Shown here: piece by piece, positions 36,503 to 39,920 of the stretch
Layout: the number at the start of each line of letters is the position of its first letter
How positions within the stretch are numbered: position 1 is the first letter of the stretch
Source of the DNA: Centipeda felix
GTDB taxonomy: Bacteria; Bacillota; Negativicutes; Selenomonadales; Selenomonadaceae
Direction of reading: 5' to 3'
Assembly (NCBI RefSeq): GCF_900186465.1
Contig: NZ_LT891959.1
Coordinates: forward strand, 62,001-126,000
Length of the DNA stretch: 64,000 nt
Program-made: the position numbers and the translations under genes
Notes under the pieces: generated by a model
Told to the model about the DNA's origin: nothing
Seen by the model: the letters and a program-made list of their open reading frames with translations, nothing else
The model's database searches: none

Positions 36503-38332
36503 TTATTCTACGGTAACAGACTTTGCGAGATTCCGCGGCTTATCTACATCGCAGCCGCGTGTGATTGCAGCATAGTAGGCAAGCAGCTGAAGCGGGATAA
36601 CCGAGAGAATCGGCATAATGAACTCGTCGGATGCCGGTACGTGCATCACATGATCCACGTACTTTTTCAATTCGGTATCCCCTTCGGCGGCGATACCGAT
36701 AACAACAGCATCACGCGCCTTGACCTCCTTGATGTTGGAGAGCGTTTTCTCGTAGACATTCCGCTGGGTTGCCAGTGCGATGACCGGAACGCCTTCTACA
36801 ATCAGAGCAAGCGTACCATGCTTCAGCTCGCCCGCAGCATAGGCTTCCGCATGAATGTACGAAATCTCCTTGAGTTTGAGTGCTCCCTCGAGGGATACGG
36901 AATAGTCAAGACCACGGCCAATGTAGAAAACATCCTCATTGAACCCGTACTGCTTGGCAAAGGTCTTGATGGGATCAACATCAGACAAGATCTCTGAAAT
37001 CTGCGAGGGAATCTCCTGCAGATGCTCTACCAATTCCGCCGTACGCTTTGGCGCAATCATTCCCTTGATCTCTGCCATATAGAGTGCAAGCATGAAGAAG
37101 AGAACAAGCTGTGTTGTGTATGCTTTCGTCGATGCGACGGCAATCTCAGGTCCTGCCCATGTGTAAACGACCTGATCTGCCTCGCGTGCGATGGAGGATC
37201 CGACCACGTTCGTAATCGCAAGTGTCTTCGCTCCACGACGCTTGGACTCCTTGAGTGCTGCAAGAGTGTCACTTGTCTCGCCGGACTGCGATACAACGAT
37301 CAGCAGCGTCTTGTCATCGACAATTGGGTCACGATAACGGAACTCTGATGCGACATCCACTTCGACCATGACGCGAGCCATTTTCTCAATATAGTATTTC
37401 CCAACGAGTCCTGCATGATATGCCGTACCACAGGCGACAATATAGATCTTGTTGAAGGAATTGAGATACTCGGGGGTCCAAGAAAGTTCTTCAAAAGAAA
37501 TACTTTTTTTGTCACTCGTAATACGCTGGCTCATCGTGTCACGAACGGCTTTCGGCTGTTCATGAATTTCCTTGAGCATGAAATGCTCATAGCCGCCCTT
37601 TTCTGCTGCCTCAGCATTCCATGTGACTTCAAATACCTTCTTGGCAACGGGCTCGCCCTTGCGGTCAGTGATCTCGACACTGTCCTTGTGTACAATGGCA
37701 AGTTCGCCGTCCCCCATGATGTAGGTGCGGCGTGTACGGGAGATAATCGCGGGGATATCCGAGGCGATATAGTTCTCCCCTTCGCCGAGGCCAATGATCA
37801 GTGGGTTGTCCTGCTTTGTGCAGACAAGCATATCCGGGTGTTTGCGGCTCATAAATGCCAGAGCATAAGACCCTTCGATACGACGCAGAACCTCGCGAAC
37901 AGCTGCAACGAAATCGCCTTGATATACGTCCTCCAGAAGATGAACAACTACCTCTGTATCCGTTTCGGACTTAAATACATGACCTTTTTCGATGAGCTCT
38001 TCCTTCAGTGAAAGATAATTTTCGATAATGCCGTTATGGACAATGGCAAAATCGTTGTGACAATCCACATGGGGATGTGCATTCACATCCGACGGACGAC
38101 CGTGCGTCGCCCAACGTGTATGACCGATACCGATGTTGCCAACGGGGACGTTTCCCTTGATCTTGTCACGAAGTGCAGATAGGCGTCCAACGCTCTTCTC
38201 GACACGAATGCTTCCGTTGTCGTAAACAGCGATTCCGGCTGAGTCATAACCACGATACTCCAGTTTGGACAGACCATCCAGCAGGAACTTTGCTGCCTGA
38301 CGATCACCGACATAACCAACAATTCCACACAT
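36503..38332 (-). CDS. glmS: Glutamine-fructose-6-phosphate aminotransferase
   Basis: The 609-residue enzyme makes glucosamine-6-phosphate, the entry step to UDP-GlcNAc for peptidoglycan and LPS. It begins with MCGIVGYVG, whose Cys is the glutaminase nucleophile. The conserved GHTRWATHG follows, then two SIS domains (VACGTAYHAG, VSQSGETSDTL, STKAYTTQL), and the chain ends with PRNLAKSVTVE. The leader contains a glmS ribozyme (38361-38515), so the mRNA is cleaved when GlcN6P accumulates. The ribosome site AGGAGG lies close before the ATG. Confidence 0.97.
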   Translation of the reverse strand: MCGIVGYVGDRQAAKFLLDGLSKLEYRGYDSAGIAVYDNGSIRVEKSVGRLSALRDKIKGNVPVGNIGIGHTRWATHGRPSDVNAHPHVDCHNDFAIVHNGIIENYLSLKEELIEKGHVFKSETDTEVVVHLLEDVYQGDFVAAVREVLRRIEGSYALAFMSRKHPDMLVCTKQDNPLIIGLGEGENYIASDIPAIISRTRRTYIMGDGELAIVHKDSVEITDRKGEPVAKKVFEVTWNAEAAEKGGYEHFMLKEIHEQPKAVRDTMSQRITSDKKSISFEELSWTPEYLNSFNKIYIVACGTAYHAGLVGKYYIEKMARVMVEVDVASEFRYRDPIVDDKTLLIVVSQSGETSDTLAALKESKRRGAKTLAITNVVGSSIAREADQVVYTWAGPEIAVASTKAYTTQLVLFFMLALYMAEIKGMIAPKRTAELVEHLQEIPSQISEILSDVDPIKTFAKQYGFNEDVFYIGRGLDYSVSLEGALKLKEISYIHAEAYAAGELKHGTLALIVEGVPVIALATQRNVYEKTLSNIKEVKARDAVVIGIAAEGDTELKKYVDHVMHVPASDEFIMPILSVIPLQLLAYYAAITRGCDVDKPRNLAKSVTVE

Positions 38333-38360
38333 AAAAATACCTCCTGATCGAGTAAAACAT

Positions 38361-38515
38361 CGCTCAGGGATTTCACTCTGACTGCAGCTTTGTCCACGCG
38401 GTCACCCGCATGATTTGACCACAGCCTATCGGCAGAGTATGCCGGAAGGCATCCGCTGACGGCTCGACAACCTTCTCCTCGTCCTCTGAGAAAACATCTT
38501 CCCAGAGCCAGCGCT
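38361..38515 (-). ncRNA. glmS ribozyme (GlcN6P-activated self-cleaving riboswitch)
   Basis: Read on the minus strand, the leader has the hallmarks of the class in the right order. These are AGCGC at the cleavage site (scissile bond between 38515 and 38514), GACGAGGAGAAGGTTGTCGA (P2/P2.1 core), GCGGATGCC, then a P3 stem, GGGTGACC and the closing GAAATCCC segment. It ends about 25 nt before the glmS ribosome site. The ligand GlcN6P is the cleavage cofactor in the known class. The 3' boundary is approximate. Confidence 0.93.
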
Positions 38516-38544
38516 AAGATTAATTCTTTTTTATAAATGAAATC

Positions 38545-38570
38545 CCCCATGCATCAGATGATGCATGGGG
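38545..38570. promoter_or_regulatory. 12-bp-arm palindrome at the glmS transcription start
   Basis: CCCCATGCATCA and TGATGCATGGGG flank a 2-bp centre. The palindrome begins 2 bp after the -10 of the glmS promoter, so it covers the predicted +1. It could be an operator, or a terminator for the upstream radical SAM gene; there is no T-run directly after it. Confidence 0.6.
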
Positions 38571-38572
38571 AC

Positions 38573-38601
38573 ATTCTATCCGATATAGCGCAATAAGTCA
38601 A
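38573..38601 (-). promoter_or_regulatory. Promoter of glmS
   Basis: On the minus strand TTGACT (38601-38596) and TAGAAT (38578-38573) are 17 bp apart. The start site is expected near 38566, about 50 nt upstream of the ribozyme cleavage point. Confidence 0.82.
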
Positions 38602-38636: not shown

Positions 38637-39920
38637 TCATGGCATCTTGGCAACATAGTGACTGAAACTCCCAATGACGAGCTGCGGAAATTCTTCATGA
38701 AGAAGATGCATAAAATTTTTCGTCCCAACGGGCATCCCTTCCGCCCCCGGCATGACTTGCAGAAATTGTGTCGGATCAATATTGAGATTTCTCATCTGAA
38801 TCATCTGAACCGGAAGCTCGCGGAAAAATTGCTGCCACGCATGGAGTTCCTCGGGGCGATCGGTAAATCCCGGAAAATGCAGCAAGTTGATGGAGACATA
38901 TACTTGGTGTTTCAATGCATAATGGATGGACTCCTTAACAGAGTCCAGCTGATAGCTTGCGCGATAGTATGCATTGTAGCTTTCAGGCCGTGCGCTAATC
39001 ATGGATACACGCAAAGAATCAAGCCCTGCATCGACAATTTTTCTCATGCCTTCCGGATATCCGGCGTTGGAGTTCATATTGATTTGACCGCGCGTGGTAA
39101 CGCTGCGTATTTTACGGATTCCATCAGAAATCCGATCCGCGGCAAGTGACGGTTCACCTTCACAGCCCTGTCCAAAGCTGATGATTCCATCCGGGGCGAG
39201 CGAGAGATGATAGATGCCGACCTCAGCGATTTCATCTGCTGTCGGTGCGAATGTAATTCGTTCTTGCGGAGACGGACAGCATTCTGAGCTCTGTAGGGAT
39301 ATGCAGCCGAGACAGTTGGCATTACAGACGGGTGATGTCGGCACACCGCATTCCCAGCGCCGGTAGAACAGGTTCTGTGCCGTGAGACAATGATAGTTCA
39401 GCGAGCAGTTCCCCACCTGCTCTACAATGCGGTTATGGGGGAGCTCTTTCATCGTGCGGCGCACCAGCTTCTTGAGTCCAGTGCTATTATAGTTGGATGG
39501 ATCCCATTTGTCATTTTCGTCCGTATATACGGCAGCCACCCACAGCTGTCCGCGATAGGACAATACGGCAGTATAGCCATATAATGGGAGTAGAGATGCA
39601 TCATCTTTGCGATGAAAAGCAGGAAGATGGGTTCGCGTGTAGCCCTGTGGAAGAATGGCAGCTACGGCAGTGCCATTGATCTCTTCCTCACATCCATCCA
39701 CACGCAGACCCACTGCCTTATGCGAAGGCATAAACATAAGATCAGCACTGTCAGGAAGCGGAATGAGTTCATCGGGATGAAGTAAAACATTTGATGTGCC
39801 AACCCGACCTAACCCCTGCAGATTCACTGCCTCACAGATGTTGCCGTGATGGTCGGCATAGACTGCGGTAATCCTATCTTTCTTCTCATGCAGAAGTGTC
39901 GTCGTTCTCGTTCGTTTCAT
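38637..39920 (-). CDS. Radical SAM protein
   Basis: The 427-residue protein has the cluster-binding CX3CX2C motif CNANCLGC (Cys199, 203, 206) unusually far from the N-terminus, after a separate domain of about 190 residues. The barrel continues with GIISFGQGCEGEPSL, QINMNSNAGYPEGM and LDSLRVSMISARPE. This layout is seen in a conserved but poorly described radical SAM group. The reaction is unknown. The gene start lies inside the end of pth (35-nt overlap), so the two are co-transcribed. Confidence 0.82.
   Translation of the reverse strand: MKRTRTTTLLHEKKDRITAVYADHHGNICEAVNLQGLGRVGTSNVLLHPDELIPLPDSADLMFMPSHKAVGLRVDGCEEEINGTAVAAILPQGYTRTHLPAFHRKDDASLLPLYGYTAVLSYRGQLWVAAVYTDENDKWDPSNYNSTGLKKLVRRTMKELPHNRIVEQVGNCSLNYHCLTAQNLFYRRWECGVPTSPVCNANCLGCISLQSSECCPSPQERITFAPTADEIAEVGIYHLSLAPDGIISFGQGCEGEPSLAADRISDGIRKIRSVTTRGQINMNSNAGYPEGMRKIVDAGLDSLRVSMISARPESYNAYYRASYQLDSVKESIHYALKHQVYVSINLLHFPGFTDRPEELHAWQQFFRELPVQMIQMRNLNIDPTQFLQVMPGAEGMPVGTKNFMHLLHEEFPQLVIGSFSHYVAKMP

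Follow-up and report, generated by a model that had tools for sequence, protein, structure and literature searches.

The glmS ribozyme of Bacillus subtilis acts by self-cleavage, after which the message is degraded by RNase J1. Translational riboswitches rely on an expression platform built from a Shine–Dalgarno (SD) sequence, an anti-SD and an anti-anti-SD. The excerpted text of PMC3997798 describes decay of the cleaved B. subtilis glmS RNA from its 5′-OH, and its reference list points to the aprE leader of the same species, the type of 5′ stem–loop that stabilizes mRNA. In the passages available from two reviews (PMC10907184 and PMC2258182), no expression platform is described for the glmS RNA, whose known output is mRNA decay, unlike the instruction to the expression machinery given by other riboswitches. 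Searches of the open-access literature found nothing joining the glmS ribozyme with Selenomonas or the Negativicutes. Among the matches listed for ribozyme leaders and SD sequestration (titles and abstract openings) there was no helix of the kind described below, and among those listed for overlapping promoters and terminators there was nothing close.

The glmS leader and its start-site hairpin

The window, that is, the whole 64,000-nt stretch analysed here, carries on its minus strand, in this order, pth, a radical SAM (rSAM) gene, a promoter, a palindrome, an A+T-rich stretch, the glmS ribozyme and glmS:

38637–39920, minus strand: rSAM gene upstream (427 aa; MoaA-like, NCBIfam matches weak and below cut-off)
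38573–38601, minus strand: promoter TTGACT-17-TAGAAT (10 of 12 consensus matches; common to all 14 genomes of the genus)
38545–38570, minus strand: palindrome CCCCATGCATCA-TC-TGATGCATGGGG (compensatory changes among congeners)
38549–38566, minus strand: predicted 5′-terminal hairpin of the glmS mRNA, seven pairs (from folding, given the predicted +1 at A38566)
38535–38547, minus strand: 5′ strand of the putative long-range helix, GGGGATTTCATTT, overlapping the right arm of the palindrome
38516–38528, minus strand: small hairpin 5′ of the cleavage site, four pairs in the window
38514–38515, minus strand: expected self-cleavage site A/GCGC (cut between A and G), at the position known for this ribozyme
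38370–38526, minus strand: glmS ribozyme, RF00234 (98.4 bits; gathering score 37)
38366–38378, minus strand: 3′ strand of the putative long-range helix, GAGTGAAATCCCT
38364–38371, minus strand: anti-SD arm of the SD hairpin, ATCCCTGA (6 nt shared with the helix 3′ strand)
38339–38347, minus strand: SD arm, TCAGGAGGT (SD AGGAGG at 38345–38340)
36503–38332, minus strand: glmS (TIGR01135, 846.6 bits)

The −35 (TTGACT, 38601–38596) is separated by a 17-nt spacer from the −10 (TAGAAT, 38578–38573). The palindrome begins two bases past the −10, with 12-nt arms that are 100% complementary and 2 nt between them, and spacing puts the predicted +1 at A38566, the seventh base past the −10, within the left arm. 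The initial annotation had described this palindrome over the predicted start and a ribozyme in the glmS leader; the sequence bears out the first and the RF00234 match the second. The glmS start codon lies 38 nt past that match, which places the ribozyme directly upstream of the gene. The closest named relatives of the encoded GlmS are from Selenomonas ruminantium and a Mitsuokella (82% identity), and by sequence the window genus would fall within the Selenomonadaceae.

RF00234 was matched in 95 of 151 genomes of this family and in all 14 of the window genus. The other 56, among them 23 of 98 good assemblies, gave no match, and the ribozyme may be lost or altered in some lineages. We read 91 loci, leaving out G142, G136, G064 and G131. 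One of these loci, L021 (genome G107), had a wrong automatic promoter call and was left out of the tail score, the terminator exclusion, the comparison of structure with shuffles and the leader–flank folding; in the complementarity tests against shuffles or swapped flanks its strand lay past the 95-nt limit and was counted as a miss.

Folded as 12 pairs of a G+C-rich stem, the window palindrome gives −20.1 kcal/mol. This exceeds chance: in 464 kb of the same chromosome (the window plus 400 kb of stretches) it ranks third by stability among 36 strict promoter matches, three of which carry hairpins at or below −18 kcal/mol. All 14 genomes of the genus combine this promoter with a hairpin at an identical offset (13 by scan, L021 by hand). 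The arms come in eight versions among 13 congeners; 87 of 88 cells remain paired, and five of 11 arm pairs (4, 5, 7, 8 and 10) have changed on both sides. Pairing, rather than sequence, has been kept, which points to RNA.

Across the family, the scan finds a TTGAC promoter with a 17-nt spacer ahead of 87 of the 91 ribozyme loci, or 88 with L021; L031 has no recognizable promoter. The hairpin sequences at the glmS start vary from genus to genus. Relative to dinucleotide shuffles, 18 of 21 genera show excess structure (z below −1) in RNA that begins at the predicted +1, compared with 13 of 35 other strong promoters of the window genome. In other families of the class, inspection by eye of 26 loci (L204–L229) found a hairpin after most promoters; a strong SD and a short open reading frame often lie between start hairpin and ribozyme there. 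Comparison thus supports hairpins at the start of glmS, and the most likely role of the window palindrome, judged from sequence, is as RNA structure in the glmS leader rather than as a protein operator.

Several other features were noted around the ribozyme. The small hairpin at 38516–38528 ends one base before the cleavage site; its counterpart has a stem of at least five pairs in 70 of the 91 family loci (14% in shuffles) and is absent from the RF00234 model structure. L021 carries about 170 extra bases between hairpin and ribozyme, whose ends look inverted (GGAATCGCTGATAAA..TTTATCAGTGCTTCC), and at the same place L014 carries a short palindrome similar in sequence. Both may possibly represent a small mobile element; searching the window for the two sequences found neither. 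L172 (G104:C1:1318327-1318641) has a pair of neighbouring RF00234 matches, each scoring about 25 bits and under the cut-off, which could be read as a split, inserted or degenerate ribozyme.

Complementarity between the leader and the ribozyme 3′ flank

The right arm of the palindrome and its tail, GGGATTTC, are complementary to GAAATCCC, or a close variant of it, just 3′ of the ribozyme in all 14 congeners. Several genera carry the leader motif CCTG[CT][TC]G, whose exact complement lies just 3′ of the ribozyme in most of the carrying loci, the two changing together: the 14 distinct pairs of this type have 97.6% of cells paired, and none of 500 shuffles attains their covariation score. With G–U pairs allowed, leader–flank complementarity is present with differing strands in different genera. 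Measured against shuffles, it reaches p<0.05 in 49 of 90 loci and, by the median, in 10 of 21 genera, the other 11 missing this level. Against flanks swapped between genera it does so in 7 of 21, a control that loses force because one motif is common to several genera. In folds, 77 of 89 loci form at least five leader–flank pairs; with shuffled leaders the figure is 227 of 534. In other families the helix is not in clear excess (14 of 28 loci, against 66 of 168 shuffled).

We had considered CCTG[CT]TG as a separate binding hairpin, an idea dropped because its complement was found 3′ of the ribozyme. A model of that hairpin, R1, matched 10 of 41 genomes at E≤0.05; seven of the places were glmS leaders, and the three matches outside them (E 0.016–0.039) look like chance.

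Within the window genus, ATCCCTGA pairs with TCAGG-A-GGT to form a hairpin that covers the SD. Its outer pairs are intact (8 of 8) in 13 of 14 congeners and number 7 of 8 in L020; inner pair 2 is C–G in nine and A–T in three, and inner pair 1 is standard in only one. The 5′ arm of this hairpin and the 3′ strand of the long-range helix overlap by 6 nt in the window, so that both cannot form in full. Both the long-range complementarity and its overlap with the anti-SD are supported by sequence comparison.

Which structure prevails is left ambiguous by the folding energies, modelled in folds that disregard the ribozyme pseudoknots and the order of co-transcriptional folding. With a stand-in hairpin replacing the ribozyme, the SD in this genus has a mean accessibility of 0.22 when the flank is folded by itself, 0.39 when its own leader is added and 0.25 when shuffled leaders are added; the own leader raises it in 7 of 14 congeners and not in the other 7. 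Over 20 genera (83 loci with a start codon within 110 nt and a recognizable SD), the own leader opens the SD more than shuffled leaders do in 14 (p=0.11), and comparison with shuffled flanks gives no significant sequestration of the SD (14 of 20, p=0.41). An SD switch common to the whole family was rejected, as it was not significant over the 20 genera. With the real ribozyme in the fold, 4 of 14 congeners show an SD that is clearly more accessible before cleavage, in the intact RNA, than in the 3′ product; the window RNA has no clear gain (0.18 uncleaved, 0.14 for the 3′ product), and its helix probability varies with the chosen 3′ end (0.95, 0.05, 0.04, 0.12 and 0.89).

The folds also respond to the 5′ end. 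An unconstrained fold from +1 to 38326 gives the 7-bp hairpin followed by the GGGG-ATTTC helix, with pair probabilities of 0.77–0.99. When the RNA begins at 38572, the CCCC arm takes the G's and the first three helix pairs vanish; from 38640, the helix pairs fall below 0.5. These models suggest that the choice of start site selects the fold.

Operator, terminator and stabilizer readings

The initial annotation proposed two layers of control, a repressor at the promoter and self-cleavage of the mRNA, and suggested a search for further copies of the palindrome near other amino-sugar genes. As a perfect dyad just downstream of a −10, the palindrome does resemble L183, a CIRCE site in the control sample that likewise follows a −10, and a repressor with this single target is possible. 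Even with up to three mismatches allowed, however, the 2.4-Mb genome holds a single copy of the 26-mer, and a search with the 18-nt core returned three extra genome sites, each with three mismatches and none of them a convincing second site. Using the CIRCE motif and a pattern that admits at most one mismatch and would miss more diverged sites, we found 28 sites in the same 14 genomes, 28 of 28 without an arm mismatch. They occur at two per genome in every genome of the genus and include L183 and G000:C16:217974-218000. The arms of the glmS palindrome, in contrast, drift with compensation among congeners, and unrelated sequences take its place in other genera. Compared with the CIRCE/HrcA operator, the position just downstream of the −10 is shared, whereas the glmS arms are not sequence-conserved and have no second site. 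An operator for a glmS repressor is thus highly improbable and that layer of the proposal poorly supported, although two layers may still hold in another form, as self-cleavage combined with pairing between leader and anti-SD.

That the palindrome might instead end the upstream transcript was also raised in the initial annotation, and this fares better. It could simply be the intrinsic terminator of the pth–rSAM transcript, lying over the glmS start as the promoter abuts the upstream gene, in which case the glmS RNA would escape termination by starting within the left arm. In the ten congeners with an rSAM gene called directly upstream, its stop lies −4 to +36 nt from the −35, leaving little room for a separate terminator, and U-rich tails follow the start-site hairpin in several genera. 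Scored as at least 7 T in 12, terminators at the start site and upstream largely exclude one another among 88 loci (1 with both, 32 at the start site only, 35 upstream only, 20 with neither), with p=4e-9 over loci, which are related, and p=0.05 over genus combinations. Relaxing the rule to at least 6 T in 12 changes the counts to 11, 36, 34 and 7 (p=2e-8 when loci are counted, p=0.30 for genus combinations), and this version also flags L016 upstream, inside the coding end of its rSAM gene. The window shares with intrinsic terminators a G+C-rich stem, after which comes a partly U-rich stretch; it differs in that its tail, GATTTCATTTAT, with 7 T in 12, is interrupted and failed the decaying tail score, that a promoter lies upstream and that the +1 is predicted inside the stem. 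The tail ATTTC is, moreover, already explained by the long-range helix, and L032 and L021 keep the start-site hairpin despite an upstream terminator of their own (in L021 a tRNA and, by eye, a terminator-like hairpin). Stop position and mutual exclusion make a terminator role plausible, but not as the whole story; as the sole explanation we hold it to be doubtful.

The hairpin might otherwise serve only to shield the glmS mRNA from decay at its 5′ end, the long-range complementarity having no function of its own. Start hairpins recur across the family and, by eye, at most promoters of the 26 loci from other families; B. subtilis mRNA is stabilized by a 5′ hairpin or a bound ribosome, according to the excerpt of PMC3997798; and the window genome encodes RNase J (658.7 bits, cut-off 400). 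Against this, the leader–flank complementarity covaries and exceeds shuffles in 10 of 21 genera, and we consider protection by itself somewhat less probable again than termination by itself.

A proposed leader switch and known systems

The best explanation as a whole is, to our mind, that the palindrome is an element of the leader RNA, in which the leader strand could hold the anti-SD and self-cleavage could let the SD hairpin close; we see this account as evenly poised between right and wrong. To call it a glmS ribozyme with a translational expression platform, in the genus and perhaps in other Selenomonadaceae, goes further and is tentative, the odds lying against it. The start site, the pairing that prevails in vivo and all consequences for expression are inferences.

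Under this leader-RNA account, transcription would begin within the left arm, as predicted, and the glmS mRNA would consequently open with the 7-bp hairpin, leaving the GGGG of the right arm and ATTTC free. These bases could then reach over the entire ribozyme to pair with GAAATCCC on its immediate 3′ side, so that the leader strand would hold the anti-SD arm and the ribosome site of glmS would stay open. Self-cleavage driven by GlcN6P would detach the leader strand: the helix becomes intermolecular and can be lost, allowing the SD hairpin to close. In co-folding, the two cleavage pieces gain only 2.5 kcal/mol by staying together. Cleavage would also expose a 5′-OH end for decay as in B. subtilis which, with RNase J present, would add to SD closing. 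Read-through RNA from the upstream gene contains the CCCC arm, and there the full palindrome would form and may stop that RNA. The position of the start, inside the arm or upstream, would thereby decide whether the strand frees the ribosome site or helps to terminate.

Were the switch real, it would be a new variant of the glmS ribozyme; should only the hairpin and helix hold, they would be an elaboration of its leader. If a conserved helix linked the leader that is lost on cleavage to the anti-SD, the glmS RNA would gain a direct translational output, and the distinction that sets it apart from other riboswitches, output by decay, would become testable. One strand would also be seen in three roles, as start-site hairpin, possible terminator and part of a long-range helix.

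Among the nearest parallels is the B. subtilis glmS ribozyme, with which the window shares a ribozyme scoring above cut-off directly before glmS and RNase J in the genome; it differs in a leader strand 5′ of the cut that is complementary to the 3′ flank and, in the window genus, in a flank that overlaps the anti-SD. The stem–loop with which the glmS mRNA is predicted to begin recalls stabilizers of the aprE type, except that here it precedes a self-cleaving ribozyme. Like a translational expression platform, the window genus has an SD hairpin and a strand competing for the anti-SD arm, but here self-cleavage, rather than the refolding of an aptamer, would take the competing strand away.
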